From a virus: a stretch of DNA of 39,451 bases. Below, one piece after another: positions 409 through 37,961 of this stretch (position 1 is its first letter; the number at the start of each line of letters is the position of its first letter). Made by a program: the position numbers and the translations under genes. The notes below the pieces were generated by a model that saw only the letters and a list, made by a program, of their open reading frames with translations, was not told the DNA's origin and did not search any database. The stretch is taken from IMG/VR virus record IMGVR_UViG_3300042868_011883, positions 1 through 39,451 of that record. The stretch is one strand, 5' to 3'.

Positions 409-831
409 TTATTTTTTCTTTTTAGGGTAATACATATCCACAAATTCTTTACCTGTAGTATCTTCATCACCGTTATCCGAAAGAAAGAAGAAAGCTCTAT
501 CAACAGCCTTAATTAACTCTTTTCTAGTGAATTCTTTCTTTTCTTGTTTAGGTTTATCTGGAACCAAAGCTAAAAACTCATCAATTTGTTCTTGTCTAGG
601 TTTTGCATTTTCATGCTCATTGGCATAGTTAAATGTTTTACCATAACTAGTGGTTAATTCAATCTCGCCACTAAAGAACTTTTGTAATTTGTTTTTAGTT
701 AGTGTTTGGATAAAATTACCACGGTCATCAACTATTAAGTATGTATTGTTAGTTGGTAAATGGTAAGCTTTTAAAACATCACCTTCGAAGTTTAAAAGAC
801 CTAATCTTTTGTTGTTTTTATTTTTCATCAT
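409..831 (-). CDS. Hypothetical protein, 140 residues, lysine-rich tail
   Basis: Not recognised. The N-terminal half reads as beta-rich (LLNFEGDVLKAYHLP, TYLIVDDRGNFIQTL), with GEIEL at about residues 55-59. The C-terminal half is charged and helical and ends in YYPKKKK. Two adjacent ATG codons exist at 831 and 828. It lies in the leftward operon between the KTSC protein and the 73-residue gene. Confidence 0.7.
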   Translation of the reverse strand: MMKNKNNKRLGLLNFEGDVLKAYHLPTNNTYLIVDDRGNFIQTLTKNKLQKFFSGEIELTTSYGKTFNYANEHENAKPRQEQIDEFLALVPDKPKQEKKEFTRKELIKAVDRAFFFLSDNGDEDTTGKEFVDMYYPKKKK

Positions 832-854
832 TTTTTAATAAGTAAGTATTATGA

Positions 855-1319
855 TTAACCATTAACTTTATCCAGCTTAGGTTCAACTGCTTTATCGTAT
901 GCAGCAATAGCATCTTTTGCTTTGTTTAATAATTTTAATTCAACATCAGCTGTTGTATCGTAATATGCAACCACAGCTTTCAATTGGTCAACCATAAACT
1001 TAATAGCGTAATCAATCTTAGCTTTGTCTTCGGCACCTTGGATTTCAGTAACTTCAACTAGGATATCTTTAACATCAACTGTATCCAATTTTTGGAAAGG
1101 ATATTTTTTAATGTGAGAATTGAAAACAGCACCTTGACTATCAGCCATTTCAAACCTGGTGTAATCAGTATTAGTAACACCTTCGTATAGGTATTGGCCA
1201 CCATTATTAAAAATAATAGTCAATGCACTAGTTGATTTATCATAAATTGATGCACAAATGTTTGATGATGCGTAAATTGATTTTGTTTTGTTGTCTTGTT
1301 CTTGTGTTTTTAAAAGCAT
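855..1319 (-). CDS. KTSC-domain protein
   Basis: 154 residues. Residues about 20-78 match the KTSC domain, a small beta-rich fold found in phage and bacterial proteins: IYDKSTSALTIIFNNGGQYLY, then a V-x-x-x-x-Y-x-x-F-x-x-A-x-S-x-G block (VTNTDYTRFEMADSQGAVFN), then HIKKYPFQKL. The rest is a charged helical tail. KTSC domains are often linked to nucleic-acid enzymes, but their function is unknown. The domain call is firm; any role is not. Confidence 0.8.
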   Translation of the reverse strand: MLLKTQEQDNKTKSIYASSNICASIYDKSTSALTIIFNNGGQYLYEGVTNTDYTRFEMADSQGAVFNSHIKKYPFQKLDTVDVKDILVEVTEIQGAEDKAKIDYAIKFMVDQLKAVVAYYDTTADVELKLLNKAKDAIAAYDKAVEPKLDKVNG

Positions 1320-1343
1320 TTCTTTTTTTATTTAAATTATTTG

Positions 1344-1559
1344 TTATGTTGTTTTGTAACCTTTTATTTTATCTAAATGATATGGCGTTGATTCGTATTT
1401 CTTTTTATCCATTTTATCATGGGTATTAAAAATAACGTAGTTTCCTGATAATGTAACCGATGCATTAAAGAATTCAATTTTATTGGTACTTGGTATTGCA
1501 GTATCAAATGTGCTTTTAATTACTAATACATCTAATATATTGTATATTTTATTATCCAT
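1344..1559 (-). CDS. Hypothetical protein, 71 residues
   Basis: Not recognised. It appears beta-rich (VTLSGNYVIFNTHDKMD) with a lysine-rich end. It is the first gene of the leftward operon, about 15 bases downstream of a good -7 box at 1574-1581. Confidence 0.65.
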   Translation of the reverse strand: MDNKIYNILDVLVIKSTFDTAIPSTNKIEFFNASVTLSGNYVIFNTHDKMDKKKYESTPYHLDKIKGYKTT

Positions 1560-1573
1560 ATTTTAAATTTTTA

Positions 1574-1604
1574 CAAATATACTAATAATAAATTTAACAA
1601 TCAA
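1574..1604 (-). promoter_or_regulatory. Bacteroidetes-type promoter, leftward operon
   Basis: Reading leftward: TTG (1602-1604), 20 bases, TATATTTG (1574-1581). This matches TTG-N19-21-TAnnTTTG. It is divergent from the clpC-like promoter; the two cores interlock. Confidence 0.8.
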
Positions 1605-1606
1605 GG

Positions 1607-1637
1607 TTGTTTTATTAAAAAGAATGTAGTATATTTG
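1607..1637 (+). promoter_or_regulatory. Bacteroidetes-type promoter for the ClpC-like gene
   Basis: TTG at 1607-1609, 20 bases, TATATTTG at 1630-1637. The leader is about 30 bases, A-rich, with no Shine-Dalgarno sequence. Confidence 0.8.
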
Positions 1638-1670
1638 CGATAGAATAATTAAATAAATAAAAATTAATAG

Positions 1671-4166
1671 ATGAATAAAGACATCCATCCTAAACTAAAA
1701 GCAATAATTAACCAAGCAATTAAAGAATCAGAGTCTTTTGATGATTTAAAAGTAAGACCAGAACATCTGATATTATCAATGCTTAACGATAATAATAACG
1801 CTACTACTAAAATAATCAAATCGTTAAAGGTTGATATTAATGATTTACATGATACAATATCAGATTATTTAAGAAAAACTGATTTAATTCCTAGGATTGC
1901 GGTTACAAATAAAAGAAAACCACCGTTTTCTGAAGAAACAAAAGCAATCTTTAAATTAGTGGATAAAGAATGTGAAAAACACAACGATAAAATGATTGAT
2001 ACGCAACATATAATGTTAACTATTTTATCGTCAAAGTTACCAATAAACGATATTCTAAACGAAGTGGGTATTAATTATAATAGTTTTAAAAACAAAATGA
2101 AAGAAGAAATTAAAAGTAGTGCATTCGATGATTCAGATATGGATGATGCGAATGATGGGTTTAAGAAAAAACCTATCAACAAAGGAGATACAAAATCTAA
2201 AACACCTGTATTGGATAATTTTTGTAGAGATGTATCTAAAGCTGTTGAAAATGGTGAGATTGACCCAGTAATCGGTAGAAAAAATGAAATTAAACGTGTG
2301 TCTCAAATTCTTTCTCGTAGAAAGAAAAACAACCCAATCCTTATTGGTGAACCTGGTGTTGGTAAAACTTCTATCGTTGAAGGGTTGGCTCAACTTATTA
2401 AAGATGGCACAGCACCAAGAACACTTCTTGGTAAAAGAATATTTACACTTGACTTAGCTTCAATCGTTGCTGGAACAAAATTCCGAGGACAATTTGAAGA
2501 AAGAATGAAAGCAATCCTACAAGAATGTAAAGCAAACCCAGATGTGGTATTATTCATAGATGAGTTACATACCATTATAGGTGCTGGAAATGCTTCAGGT
2601 TCATTAGATGCTTCAAACATATTCAAACCAGCGTTGGCTCGTGGAGAACTTCAAGTAATCGGAGCAACAACACTTGATGAATACCGTGAAAACATTGAAA
2701 AAGATGGTGCACTTACAAGACGTTTTCAACAAGTTCTTGTTGAAGAACCAACGCTTGATGAAACTAGAACTATCTTGTTAAACATCAAAGATAAATATGA
2801 AAAACATCATAAGGTTAAATACACTGATGAAGCTATTGAAGAATGTGTGAAATTATCAGCTCGCTACATCATGGATAGAAGTATGCCTGACAAAGCGATT
2901 GATGTATTGGATGAAGCTGGTGCTAGTACCAACGTTAGTGTTGAGAAACCAGAAAAAATTAAAAAGTTAGAAGTTAAAAGACTTGAAATCATCGAAAAGA
3001 AAAAAGAAGTTGTTCTTAAACAAAAGTATGAAGAAGCGGCTAAACTTAGAGATGAAGAGAAAAAAATTGATGATGCGTTGGAAAAAGCTTTGTACGAATG
3101 GAATGAAAGCCTAGACCAAGACATAACTGAAATTGGTGTTGAAATCATTTCAGAGATAGTATCAATGATGACTGGGATTCCATTGAATAAAATCTCAACT
3201 CAAGAAGGTAAAAGACTTTTAAACTTAGACAAAGAATTAAGTGGAAGTGTTATCGGTCAAGAATCAGCAGTTGTTAAGGTCGTAAAAGCGATTAAACGTA
3301 ACCGTATTGGAATAAAAGATAAAAACAAACCAGTTGGTTCATTTATATTTTTAGGTCCAACTGGAGTAGGAAAAACACTCTTGGCTAAATTACTTGCTGA
3401 ACAAGTATTTGGTGATGCGGAAGCACTTGTTAGAATGGATATGTCAGAATACATGGAAAAACATTCAGTGTCCAGACTTATAGGTCCACCACCAGGATAT
3501 GTAGGTTATGACCAAGGTGGTCAGTTAACAGAAAAAGTGAGAAGAAAACCACACTGTGTAATCTTATTTGATGAGATTGAAAAAGCACACGAAGATGTAT
3601 TCAACTTATTGTTACAATTATTAGATGAAGGTCAATTAACAGATGGTTTAGGTCGTAAGGTTAATTTCAAAAATGCTTTGATTATTATGACATCAAACAT
3701 TGGTGTTAAAGAAGCAAATTCATTTGGTAAAAACATGGGATTTGAAACTGACTCTAAAATTCTTTCTGAAGAAACTAAAGTTAGAGAAATAATCGAGAAA
3801 GCTCTTAAGAAAAAATTCAAACCAGAATTTCTTAATCGTATTGATGAAGCGATTGTTTTTAATTCATTAACTAGAGAAGACATACATAAGATTATTTATG
3901 TTGAAATTGAAAAATTAAAAGGTAGAATCGAAGAAATGCATTACGGTTTAAATGTTACAGAAGACGCAATTGATTTCTTAGCTGAACAAGGTTATAGTGA
4001 AGAATACGGTGCCAGACCACTTAATAGAGCAATTCAACATTATATTGAAGATTCTGTTGCTGATGAAATCCTTAATGATAATATCAAAGAAGGTGAGATA
4101 ATCAACATTGATTATGTTAAAGGTGAGATAGTTGTAAAGACAACAAAAAAGTCAAAAACCAAATAA
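1671..4166 (+). CDS. clpC: ClpC-like AAA+ protein unfoldase
   Basis: 831 residues with the full ClpC layout. A Clp N domain spans about 1-145. D1 has Walker A GEPGVGKT (226-233), Walker B VVLFIDE (292-298) and arginines at 350-351. A short middle region carries a UVR-like motif (KYEEAAKLRDEEKKI, about 452-466) rather than the long coiled coil of ClpB. D2 has Walker A GPTGVGKT (562-569) and Walker B ILFDEIE. The loop that binds ClpP in ClpC/ClpA (hydrophobic-G-F) is present as MGF at 689-691. Known family role: ATP-driven unfolding of proteins and feeding to ClpP. Inference: the phage protein may dock on host ClpP to redirect proteolysis. It has its own promoter and terminator. Confidence 0.93.
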   Translation: MNKDIHPKLKAIINQAIKESESFDDLKVRPEHLILSMLNDNNNATTKIIKSLKVDINDLHDTISDYLRKTDLIPRIAVTNKRKPPFSEETKAIFKLVDKECEKHNDKMIDTQHIMLTILSSKLPINDILNEVGINYNSFKNKMKEEIKSSAFDDSDMDDANDGFKKKPINKGDTKSKTPVLDNFCRDVSKAVENGEIDPVIGRKNEIKRVSQILSRRKKNNPILIGEPGVGKTSIVEGLAQLIKDGTAPRTLLGKRIFTLDLASIVAGTKFRGQFEERMKAILQECKANPDVVLFIDELHTIIGAGNASGSLDASNIFKPALARGELQVIGATTLDEYRENIEKDGALTRRFQQVLVEEPTLDETRTILLNIKDKYEKHHKVKYTDEAIEECVKLSARYIMDRSMPDKAIDVLDEAGASTNVSVEKPEKIKKLEVKRLEIIEKKKEVVLKQKYEEAAKLRDEEKKIDDALEKALYEWNESLDQDITEIGVEIISEIVSMMTGIPLNKISTQEGKRLLNLDKELSGSVIGQESAVVKVVKAIKRNRIGIKDKNKPVGSFIFLGPTGVGKTLLAKLLAEQVFGDAEALVRMDMSEYMEKHSVSRLIGPPPGYVGYDQGGQLTEKVRRKPHCVILFDEIEKAHEDVFNLLLQLLDEGQLTDGLGRKVNFKNALIIMTSNIGVKEANSFGKNMGFETDSKILSEETKVREIIEKALKKKFKPEFLNRIDEAIVFNSLTREDIHKIIYVEIEKLKGRIEEMHYGLNVTEDAIDFLAEQGYSEEYGARPLNRAIQHYIEDSVADEILNDNIKEGEIINIDYVKGEIVVKTTKKSKTK

Positions 4167-4211: not shown

Positions 4212-5084
4212 ATGATAGAACAGATACTACAAAATAAATATGGAGAAAGCCTTAAAGCTTTAGATATATACGAAACCAAAACTAGCCTTATACTTTCTAG
4301 GATTATTGTTAATCCAGAAACTAGAGAAGTTGGTGTTGGTACTAGTGTCATGGAAGATTTGGAAAAATATGCCGATGAAAATGGACAAATCATAGCTCTA
4401 ACACCTTCTAGCGATTTTGGGGGTAATGTGAATAGACTAGTACAATTTTATAAAAGATTCGGTTTTAAAATGAATAAAGGTCATAATAAAAACTTTCAAT
4501 TTAAAGATACTATGATTAGATACCCAAAATTACCAGGAATGAAAGAAAATATTAAACCTATGATTAAATCGCTTCTTAGAGAAGCCTTGGATAAAACAAT
4601 CACATGTACTGAATGTGGTTGGCATTGGAAAGAATCTGAATCAGATAAAAAAGACCTATACATTTGTCATGAATGTGGTCATGACAATACACCAAAAAAA
4701 GAAAATCTTAATGAAAGACTTTTAACAAAAAAAGAAAAAGATGTTAAGGTAATGGCAGCATTTGTAAACTTTGCCAAAAAAGAATTAGGTATAGATGATG
4801 GAATCAAAGTAGCTTTGGCTTACGAAAGAACACCAGACATAAAAACAACAGCTTATTATAACATGAGTGGGTTTGTAAAGATTTATGTTAAAGATAGAGC
4901 AATAATCGATGTATGTCGTTCTATTGCACACGAATTGGTTCACCATAAACAAAACATAGAAGGAAGACTTAGTGATTCTGTAAAAGATGGTGAAGATGGA
5001 AGTGACATTGAAAATGAAGCCAACGCAGTTGCTGGGGTTATAATAAGAAAATGGGGAAAATTATATCCAGAATTATATGTATAA
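4212..5084 (+). CDS. GNAT-like / zinc-ribbon / HExxH metalloprotease-like fusion
   Basis: 290 residues. Residues 15-105 look like a GNAT acyltransferase (VNPETREVGVGTSVMEDL as motif A; LVQFYKRFGFKM as the C-terminal part). Residues 110-126 are a helix, KENIKPMIKSLLREAL, that resembles the leaders of other proteins in this window. Residues 132-155 hold a zinc ribbon (C132, C135, C152, C155). The C-terminal part has HELVH (240-244) and a downstream ENEANAVAG glutamate (about 269), as in zinc proteases. I chose the ATG at 4212; the upstream in-frame codons run through the terminator. It overlaps the next gene by 8 bases. It may be a fusion of two proteins. Substrates are unknown. Confidence 0.78.
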   Translation: MIEQILQNKYGESLKALDIYETKTSLILSRIIVNPETREVGVGTSVMEDLEKYADENGQIIALTPSSDFGGNVNRLVQFYKRFGFKMNKGHNKNFQFKDTMIRYPKLPGMKENIKPMIKSLLREALDKTITCTECGWHWKESESDKKDLYICHECGHDNTPKKENLNERLLTKKEKDVKVMAAFVNFAKKELGIDDGIKVALAYERTPDIKTTAYYNMSGFVKIYVKDRAIIDVCRSIAHELVHHKQNIEGRLSDSVKDGEDGSDIENEANAVAGVIIRKWGKLYPELYV

Positions 5085-24222: not shown

Positions 24223-24261
24223 AATGTTAAAATTTTTAGTTGTTCATTCATTTGAACACTG

Positions 24262-24269
24262 CAAAGGTA
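24262..24269 (-). promoter_or_regulatory. -7 box TACCTTTG
   Basis: Leftward TACCTTTG, 40 bases before the start at 24222, with a TTG 18 bases upstream. Confidence 0.65.
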
Positions 24270-24362
24270 AACTTATTTTTGGATATACAATGAAAAAGTT
24301 ATTAACATTTGATTGTTAATAACTTTTTTTTATTTTTGTCGGGTGCATTAAAAAATTGCCGT

Positions 24363-24422
24363 ACTTTGCATTGTCAAAGAGTTACAAATACGACCCCAAA
24401 GGTACGTGTAAGTAGACTCCGA
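24363..24422 (+). ncRNA. Structured RNA copy 1
   Basis: Shares TTTGCATTGTCAAAGAGTTAC at its 5' end and GTGTAAGTAGACTCCG at its 3' end with copy 2. GAGTTAC (24379-24385) pairs with GTAGACTC (24412-24419), one bulged G. The inner hairpin is ACG-ACC/GGT-a-CGT (24390-24407), loop CCAAA. The inner stem differs from copy 2 but still pairs. No protein frame. A weak promoter (GTACTTTG) abuts it. The rest of the gap to 24721 shows only A+T-rich sequence and a TATCTTTG at 24643-24650. Confidence 0.55.
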
Positions 24423-24721
24423 CCTACTTTTTATTTTTTTTACGTGTGTACGCCTACGGGTGCGTGTGTGTGCGTAGTATAATAAATTTATTTTATATAT
24501 CCTACTACTTTAACAAAAATTTAACATATTATTTTTTTGGTTTGGTCCGACTTAATTTTAGCCGTTTTAAGGCGTTAAATTTATATAAACCATATCAATA
24601 TACTATTTTGATATAAAAGTGCCTTAGAAGTCAAATTCTGGCTATCTTTGTGCATTGTGTTATATTGATTAGATAGTATTAATTTTAGTTTATATTATTT
24701 GCTGCTGCAACTATAACGCAA

Positions 24722-24750
24722 AAAAAAACGCTACCCGAAGATAGCGTTTT
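24722..24750 (-). terminator. Terminator of the DUF932 gene
   Basis: AAAACGCTA (24725-24733) pairs with TAGCGTTTT (24742-24750), then a T run leftward. Confidence 0.88.
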
Positions 24751-24758
24751 GATATAGA

Positions 24759-24772
24759 TACACAAATGTGTA
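24759..24772. repeat. TACACAaaTGTGTA inverted repeat
   Basis: Lies between the DUF932 stop codon and its terminator. One of four related copies. Confidence 0.75.
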
Positions 24773-24774
24773 CA

Positions 24775-29765: not shown

Positions 29766-29823
29766 CAAATGTATAGCGAATAAATGAATATAGCAAATAT
29801 AAAAATGTTAAAGTTTTGTTAAA
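29766..29823 (-). promoter_or_regulatory. Promoter module
   Basis: TTG, 20 bases with TTATTCGC, TACATTTG (29766-29773); 18-bp element 29806-29823. Confidence 0.7.
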
Positions 29824-29828
29824 AAGAA

Positions 29829-30119
29829 AATGAGGGTTGCGTCCAACCCTCATTCATTAATAGAATTACTATCATCAGTCTTATGTTAATTTATGGTCAA
29901 AATAAATACAACCCTCAAAGGTTACCACTTAACAACACTTAAGTTGCATTAACAAGTCCTACGTTGCCGACAAGCAAAGATTTTAAAACAACCTTTGAGG
30001 GAACTAATAAAAAAGAAATACATATAGAATAACACAAATATATCAAATTAAGTGATAATCGAGTGGGGATAGCCAGTCAAAGGTTAGTTTGTGCGTTCCA
30101 ACTCTACCTCGATTATCAC
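29829..30119 (-). ncRNA. Candidate ~290-nt structured RNA
   Basis: A promoter (TACATTTG, 30124-30131, TTG 20 bases upstream) starts transcription at the first stem. Stem 1: CTCGATTATCAC (30108-30119) with GTGATAATCGAG (30052-30063), 12 bp perfect. Stem 2: AACCTTTGAGGG (29990-30001) with CCCTCAAAGGTT (29912-29923), 12 bp perfect. Within stem 2 a hairpin ACTTAA/TTAAGT (29926-29943). End: terminator TGAGGGTTG/CAACCCTCA (29831-29852) plus T run. The 10-mer TCAAAGGTTA occurs both in stem 1's loop (30077-30086) and in stem 2 (29915-29924), so stem 2's other arm can pair with either. No protein frame. Function unknown. Confidence 0.72.
29831..29852 (-). terminator. Terminator of the structured RNA
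   Basis: 9-bp perfect stem with a four-base loop, then a T-rich run leftward. Confidence 0.88.
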
Positions 30120-30123
30120 ATTG

Positions 30124-30181
30124 CAAATGTATGGCGAATAATTTAAACTACCAAATCAACTTCTGTTAAAGTTTTGTTAAA
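30124..30181 (-). promoter_or_regulatory. Promoter module of the structured RNA
   Basis: TACATTTG (30124-30131), TTG 20 bases upstream, 18-bp element 30164-30181. It lies inside the 3' end of the DnaA-like gene. The stretch TTTGGTAGTTTAAATTATT is identical in the tRNA operon promoter at 38.27 kb. Confidence 0.72.
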
Positions 30182-30562
30182 AATAATTGTTTCTCTTTGT
30201 TTCTTTAACTCAACAACCATTTGTTCCAAACGATAAATTTCATCATCAATACTCTCAATTCTTTGAAAATCATTTCCAGATTTGTATAGATTGATAATTT
30301 TATGTTTAATCAGTTCTAACTTTTTATTATAGAAACAAAATGTACTATATTGTGCAAGTCCGTGTATAACGGTTGCATGGTCTTTATTAACACTTCTACC
30401 TATTTTTGCAAGACTTTGACTTGGTGTTAAATCTTTTAGTATAGAATAATATAAACATCGTGCCTCAACATTGTAACGTTCTCTTGTAGTAATAGTAACA
30501 TCAATACCTAACTCGGTAATTATATGTTGCCTAACTCTTTCATTTGCCCTATCAAATACCAT
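30143..30562 (-). CDS. DnaA domain IV-like DNA-binding protein
   Basis: 139 residues. The first 75 resemble the DNA-binding domain IV of DnaA: TTRERYNVEARCLYYSIL, then LAKIGRSVNKDHATVIHGL, with the DHATVIHG box at 61-68. There is no ATPase domain. The tail is a coiled-coil helix (DDEIYRLEQMVVELKKQRET). Likely a sequence-specific DNA-binding protein for replication or regulation. Last gene of a four-gene operon; it overlaps its upstream neighbour by one base (TAATG). Confidence 0.82.
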   Translation of the reverse strand: MVFDRANERVRQHIITELGIDVTITTRERYNVEARCLYYSILKDLTPSQSLAKIGRSVNKDHATVIHGLAQYSTFCFYNKKLELIKHKIINLYKSGNDFQRIESIDDEIYRLEQMVVELKKQRETIIFNKTLTEVDLVV

Positions 30563-37622: not shown

Positions 37623-37671
37623 CTTATCCTGAATACAAAACTAATTATGTACGGGCAAGCACAATAATTTG

Positions 37672-37744
37672 TAGCAATAACAGGATTCGAACCTGTGTTT
37701 CCACCCCACATGGGCAGCGTCCTTGACCGCTAGACGATACTGCA
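37672..37744 (-). tRNA. tRNA-like gene, identity unresolved
   Basis: T arm ACAGG-TTCGAAT-CCTGT and D arm (TCGTCTAGCGGTCAAGGACG) are standard. Anticodon stem CTGCC/GGTGG encloses the loop CATGTGG, which puts A at position 33 (normally U) and TGT at 34-36. The acceptor stem has a weak outer pair. No CCA encoded. It could be a decayed or unusual tRNA (Thr by position; GTG one base over). Confidence 0.7.
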
Positions 37745-37886
37745 AAACCTATAAAACCAGCTGGGAATTACGGGTCATCTCAACACTTGCAATTGAAGAG
37801 ACTAATCTTTTAACTTGGCGATTCCTATTCTTCTGACAAAACCTAAATTGTGCCAACACGCTTTCTTCGAGCTTGTAAAAGATTTG

Positions 37887-37961
37887 GGTTTCATATCGGA
37901 CTCGAACCGATGACATCTACCACCACAAAGTAGCGTTCTAACCAACTGAACTAAAGAAACC
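37887..37961 (-). tRNA. tRNA-His (GUG)
   Basis: Anticodon loop TTGTGGT between CTACT and GGTAG gives GTG. An extra 5' G (37961) faces C73 (37887), the hallmark G-1:C73 pair of tRNA-His. D arm (GTTC/GAAC) and T arm (ATCGG-TTCGAGT-CCGAT) are standard; one T-T mismatch in the acceptor. CCA not encoded. Between this and the next tRNA (37745-37886) I see no further gene. Confidence 0.9.

Follow-up and report, generated by a model that had tools for sequence, protein, structure and literature searches.

The minus strand of a 39,451-base virus record (this whole stretch of DNA is called the window here) encodes a phage RNA with a core of about 150 nt, and this core belongs to an apparently uncatalogued family of RNAs with two pseudoknots. 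Its newness rests on Rfam and on a limited part of the open-access literature, and it applies to the RNA family and not to the function of the RNA. Comparison of the members' sequences establishes the helices H1, P1, P2, P3, and H5, and it shows that P1 interleaves with P2 and that the H1 loop pairs with an AAGACU segment. We put the chances at about even that the transcript is a stable, stand-alone phage RNA that would most likely act in trans, with both stability and trans action read from its genomic context.

The core and its family

When the part of the RNA outside stem 1 was searched for among related jumbo-phage records, four of these matched a core around CTTGTCGGCAAYGTAGG, and three successive pattern scans of viral contigs extended the core to many phages, with protein-coding matches set aside. 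Forty-nine members were collected from phage contigs including those of cultured Flavobacterium phages (FL-1, Elemovirus). The covariance model R2, which was built from 13 sequences with the window left out, scores all 49 chosen sources and recovers the window copy at 30002-29855 (46.9 bits, E = 4e-10). Several other matches were rejected: a Burkholderia sequence that matched the core is part of a protein-coding frame, some pattern matches were repeats of protein genes, and weak model matches in PTm1 and MA9V-2 are without the core motif.

In the direction from 5' to 3', the fold consists of the 5' strand of P1, the hairpin H1 (CCUUNN-UUGUCG-NNAAUGUAGG), the 5' strand of P2, a conserved joiner, the 5' strand of P3, and the 3' strand of P1, followed by a variable hairpin, the 3' strand of P3, the 3' strand of P2, AAGACUGAC, and the 3' hairpin H5, which often has a GAAAG loop. 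P1 and P2 interleave and form the first pseudoknot, and the second arises from pairing between the H1 loop and the AAGACU that comes after P2. The earlier note had proposed a free-standing, structured, non-coding phage RNA containing a pseudoknot; this was borne out, and the true pseudoknots are these two.

In the 13 sequences, P1 included, 95.1% of the cells are paired and 21 of the 33 pairs change on both sides, as do all eight pairs of P1. None of 500 shuffles reaches any of the five measures, and the paired cells drop to 30-48% in slid controls. The 49 sequences have 95.0% of their cells paired and 259 double changes, compared to 65 in shuffles, in an alignment that was fitted to the model, to the advantage of the helices in it. 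Neither P1 nor the H1-loop pairing is part of the model, which makes both of them independent tests. Nearly every member allows P1 to be drawn, in most cases about 8-11 nt before H1; its sequence is free while its position is fixed. When scanning for P1 the longest helix is sometimes another one, and the mean helix score of 8.5 is separated only modestly from the 6.6 of mismatched controls. Therefore, the weight for P1 rests on the covariation in the 13 sequences and on its constant position. In the pairing of the H1 loop with GAC, G-C is replaced by A-U in three members (L256, L292, and L283) and 100% of the cells are paired. Divergent H1 loops keep the pairing as well (GGUCC with GGACU in L265, AACC with GGUU in L283).

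In H1, P1, P2, and the H1-loop pairing the window copy fits this pattern (Table 1). Its H1 has one U-G for C-G and AACGUAGG in place of AAUGUAGG, and the GUC-bearing loop is present and pairs with the GAC directly after P2. Its 12-bp P1 interleaves with P2 (CUUGUUAAU/AUUAACA). At the place of H5 there is a small AUAG/CUAU hairpin without the GAAAG loop, as in the other jumbo-phage members.

In Rfam 15 (4227 families), the window and six other members gave only chance-level scores at the RNA, even at permissive E-values, and 16 further member contigs, some of which overlap the earlier sets, gave only tRNAs at the gathering threshold. No Rfam family thus matches the RNA of the window or of the scanned members, in agreement with the earlier note, which had not recognised it as a known class. 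A blastn search of the phage collection for relatives of the whole RNA returned only short chance or promoter matches among the matches listed, and a limited search of the open-access literature found no description of a double-pseudoknot RNA family of this kind. PMC8040213 tells of thousands of unnamed structured RNAs predicted in human microbiomes, some of them phage-linked, and it is possible that the family has been predicted before without a name, for example in that set.

The locus in the window and its 5' hairpin

Gene content and synteny tie the window to the 232,931-base phage G001, its nearest relative. On its minus strand the locus would encode a free-standing phage RNA of about 290 nt with its own promoter, a 5' hairpin module, the core, and a terminator; for this architecture taken together with trans action we see evenly balanced chances. 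The promoter, two perfect 12-bp stems, an inner hairpin, and a strong terminator had been described in the earlier note, and all of them are present, with hairpins found inside the second stem. The transcript is predicted to be more stable than 100 of 100 dinucleotide shuffles (z = -3.3), and none of 500 shuffles contains a perfect 12-bp inverted repeat. The description of the RNA as free of any protein frame is nearly right: there is a 24-codon ATG frame (30023-29949), but an equally long frame appears in 22% of shuffles, and a small protein was rejected on account of this chance-level length.

Table 1. Positions of the RNA features and of the upstream neighbouring gene in the window
Feature	Positions	Strand	Remarks
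Bacteroidota-type promoter TTTG-N20-TACATTTG	30124-30155	-	Same type precedes neighbouring early small genes
5' hairpin module (stem 1)	30048-30119	-	12-bp stem 30119-30108/30063-30052; 44-nt loop with conserved bulges; outside the family core
Family core	29855-30002	-	Match of covariance model R2
P1 5' strand CCCUCAAAGGUU (5' arm of stem 2 in the transcript)	29990-30001	-	
P1 3' strand AACCUUUGAGGG	29912-29923	-	
H1 hairpin CUUUGC-UUGUCG-GCAACGUAGG	29958-29979	-	Loop 29973-29968; near-invariant family signature
P2 5' strand CUUGUUAAU	29948-29956	-	Interleaved with P1 (pseudoknot)
P2 3' strand AUUAACA	29884-29890	-	
Inner hairpin ACUUAA/UUAAGU	29927-29944	-	Between P2 5' and P1 3'; present in the window member, variable across the family
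AAGACUGA	29875-29882	-	GAC 29880-29878 pairs with H1-loop GUC 29971-29969 (second pseudoknot)
Small hairpin where the family has the 3' hairpin H5	29860-29872	-	
Intrinsic terminator	29821-29854	-	12-bp hairpin and U-run
DnaA domain IV (Bac_DnaA_C) helix-turn-helix gene	30143-30562	-	PF08299, E = 7e-8; upstream neighbour, outside the RNA

Stem 1 is a separate and portable 5' leader hairpin of 72 nt that is accessory to the core. Its single relative is found at 4669-4740 of the locus L040 in G001 (84% identity over 85 nt), where a promoter precedes it and the ATG of a gene for 52 residues follows, so that it is part of an mRNA leader. Three compensatory pair changes separate the two hairpins and 100% of the pairs are kept. 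Both stems of the earlier note are preserved by paired changes in relatives, stem 1 in L040 and stem 2, which is P1, in the family. A broad family of stem 1 hairpins was rejected, given that exact and gapped patterns in viral contigs matched L040 only. A model of stem 1 (R1) had no match in 48 related phage records, and matches of the patterns to bacterial genomes, for example in a histidine-kinase gene (L136), are due to chance. The L040 hairpin has the conserved bulges GUAGAGU, AACGC, and ACUAAC and covarying stems, and the 72-nt hairpin shared by the window and L040 is possibly a second, rarer regulatory RNA element.

The earlier note had also seen a built-in alternative pairing, by which the 5' arm of stem 2 would pair either with its 3' arm or with the loop of stem 1 and give two exclusive folds. 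The 10-mer UAACCUUUGA on which this was based is indeed present twice, in the stem 1 loop (30086-30077) and in the 3' arm of P1 (29924-29915). Such a repeat is weak evidence on its own because 9% of shuffles hold some 10-mer direct repeat. The loop in L040 reads UAACAACCGA instead of the 10-mer, and the L040 locus is without stem 2, so that the alternative pairing has no comparative support. When both pairings are considered, covariation is found for stem 2, the conserved helix P1, and the relatives do not support pairing with the 10-mer in the loop. The predicted duplex energies favour P1 as well, by about 8 kcal/mol (-20.5 compared to -12.7 kcal/mol). One could still imagine an attenuator, in which the stem 1 loop captures the 5' arm of stem 2 and frees its 3' arm to open the terminator. 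Besides the 10-mer, a 9-mer (UGAGGGUUG) shared by the 3' arm of P1 and the 5' arm of the terminator and the overlap of the 24-codon frame with P1 would suit such a switch. However, repeats of 10 and 9 letters occur in 9% and 27% of shuffles, the alternative pairing is the weaker one and is not backed by the 10-mer-free relative of stem 1, P1 is conserved in members that do not have stem 1, and the next gene has its own promoter. We consider an attenuator very improbable.

Several other features of the window were recorded. Many early genes between 26000 and 39451 have their own promoter (e.g. at 30165-30184 and 29809-29826), in which a GTTAAAGTTTTGTTAA-like element lies upstream of TTG-N19/20-TANNTTTG and a TACTCGAATTTAAAAC-like leader follows; this shared layout is probably a phage-wide early promoter module. 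An ORF-poor gap of 550 nt (24223-24774) holds GTCGGAGTCTACT, which is also found near a hairpin-rich gap of L040 (5230-5300), and this is possibly another non-coding element common to both. The minus strand encodes a tRNA-Thr (TGT, 37671-37744) and a tRNA-His (GTG, 37886-37960). The homologue of the ClpA-like ATPase gene at 1671-4166 is about 1.1 kb longer in the relatives L095, L097, L113, and L125 (about 501-4090), and these stretched homologues look as if they were interrupted by an intron or intein.

Genomic neighbourhood and mode of action

The searched phage genomes that carry the RNA have one credible copy each, with varied neighbouring genes. The carriers with known hosts are Flavobacterium phages: in the cultured phage FL-1 the RNA lies in an unannotated intergenic gap, and among the Elemovirus phages of Flavobacterium sp. 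BAL314 (elemoA, D, and F) that of elemoF is located directly after tRNA-Met, in an unannotated gap as well. No credible match was found in eight other named Bacteroidota phages, and 395 Bacteroidota genomes yielded one GC-rich pattern match, which was judged to be chance from its sequence. In G001, to which the window phage is most closely related, no credible copy turned up (E = 0.08), so that the RNA is dispensable.

Seven of the 49 members have a tRNA gene within about 4 nt of the RNA, either as the next gene after the RNA (L208, L210, L217, and L292) or directly before it (L211, L265, and L273). About 15 of the 49 have a U-run directly after H5, and several members end in their own terminator; a promoter of its own was found for the RNA in the window, in G026 (L166), and in L274. 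Many members occupy the gap that separates the stop codon of a small gene from the start of the gene after it. In five members (L255, L257, L261, L262, and L275), H5 is directly followed by an extra CCUC/GAGG hairpin with varied loop. This hairpin carries a GAGG or GGAGG that precedes an ATG by about 15-25 nt, and it could hide or present a ribosome site.

The RNA might be a cis element, whose pseudoknot would be an aptamer or protein site and whose 3' hairpin would be the expression platform for termination or translation of the next gene. An ATG close after the 3' hairpin in most members, the U-run in about 15 of them, and the GGAGG just before the ATG in the subgroup with the further hairpin all suit such an element. 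However, the downstream genes are not conserved and there is no constant regulated gene; in four members the RNA is followed by a tRNA and in three it comes directly after one, and in the window it is followed by a terminator and a separate promoter. A cis element thus seems unlikely to us. What favours a stable, stand-alone RNA acting in trans is that the RNA persists amid varying flanking genes and that in many members a terminator or tRNA stands at its 3' end. In some genomes its own terminator would free such an RNA from the primary transcript, and in others tRNA processing at the abutting tRNA would do so. The near-invariant unpaired positions (the H1 loop, UGUA, the joiner after P2, and the segment before P3) could form a surface for binding a host or phage protein, and the RNA would serve as decoy, scaffold, or regulator during infection. 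Three observations speak against this reading: many members are 10-35 nt before a start codon, as expected for a cis element, the RNA is dispensable, as seen from G001, and no constant neighbouring gene points to a protein partner.

Candidate partners were considered among the neighbours. A conserved family of 74-aa ORFs (NTTAYKEEDFYLLTDL...ELYSEFELITI) precedes the RNA in a large subgroup (L174, L178, L186, L187, L201, L208-L210, L214, L217, L218, L284, and L292) but was rejected as an obligatory partner, given that Elemovirus has both apart from each other. A TnpB-like gene was not seen beside the members, whose neighbours were annotated unsystematically. The gene next to the window RNA is confirmed as DnaA domain IV-like. 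Such a gene also adjoins the RNA in G026, is one gene away in G019, and lies directly downstream in L266; it is absent beside most members and was rejected as a partner too. Together with the inverted repeats, the adjacent DnaA-like gene might suggest an element acting at the level of DNA (an origin, recombination, or packaging site) that merely resembles an RNA. It is hard to reconcile this with the sense orientation within operons, the G-U pairs, the promoter and terminator, the abutment to tRNAs, and two pseudoknots with compensatory changes, and we regard it as highly improbable. In particular, the structured origin considered in the earlier note is not supported because the covariation fits the transcribed strand and members are found at tRNA ends or beside terminators.

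Parallels among known RNAs

HDV-like ribozymes share with the family the interleaved P1/P2 pseudoknot and a hairpin between P2 5' and P1 3' and, in many members, another hairpin between P1 3' and P2 3'. In contrast to them, the family has, between P1 5' and P2 5', the additional invariant hairpin H1 with a loop that pairs downstream of P2, and the window and the scanned members had no match to HDV-like ribozymes above the Rfam gathering threshold. The RNA could be a self-cleaving or processing ribozyme by which phages punctuate their polycistronic transcripts, with the compact pseudoknot in HDV-like order (P1 5', P2 5', P1 3', P2 3'), the way in which members closely adjoin stop codons and the ends of tRNAs, and a member contig (L169) with two near-threshold hammerhead matches, one of them in the gap just upstream, on its side. 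However, no Rfam ribozyme family matches, the HDV families included, the extra conserved hairpins are absent from HDV-type ribozymes, and the window copy, with its own promoter and terminator, has no obvious need to cleave. We regard such a ribozyme as rather improbable.

The two matches in L169 are to the type III hammerhead (237-291 and 1833-1887) and score 44.0 and 36.5 bits at a Rfam threshold of 48.5; the second is in the gap immediately before the 74-aa gene, which in turn precedes the RNA. RAGATH-type RNAs are conserved RNAs that were found near hammerhead and twister ribozymes (PMC11061315). What the family has in common with them is that it is conserved and structured and that, in this one contig, a hammerhead is close by; however, it matches no Rfam RAGATH family. 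GOLLD, ROOL, and other large RNAs of phages and mobile elements are structured, non-coding RNAs with unknown roles, some of them phage-borne and near tRNAs. RNAs of the GOLLD/ROOL type have several hundred nucleotides and form RNA-only multimers (PMC12286853), whereas the family described here has about 150 nt and no Rfam match.

The closest analogues in setting are the RNAs C and D (species 1 and 2) of T4, which are small (about 120-140 nt), structured, and apparently stable, and whose genes stand head to tail with those for tRNAs in the tRNA region of the phage. T4 RNA C differs from the family in having a tRNA-like T arm, and to our knowledge neither of the two is a double pseudoknot of this pattern. 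They were rejected as homologues, there being no sequence relation and no match of R2 in the T4 segment that was searched (L225).

Two covarying pseudoknots are seldom found in one structured RNA, and most such RNAs prove to be ribozymes, riboswitches, or RNA machines. We tentatively suggest that the family, usually single-copy in many phages and released by tRNA processing or its own terminator, may be an RNA of a new functional kind: either it would be catalytic and have a new active site, or it would act in trans and capture an enzyme or a defence protein of the host. As the RNA occurs in cultured phages (FL-1, and Elemovirus on Flavobacterium sp. BAL314), its expression, self-cleavage, and binding of host proteins are directly testable. 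As far as Rfam and the open-access search go, diverse phages thus carry, about once per genome, an uncatalogued RNA family that is an unrelated parallel to the long-unexplained stable RNAs of the T4 tRNA cluster.
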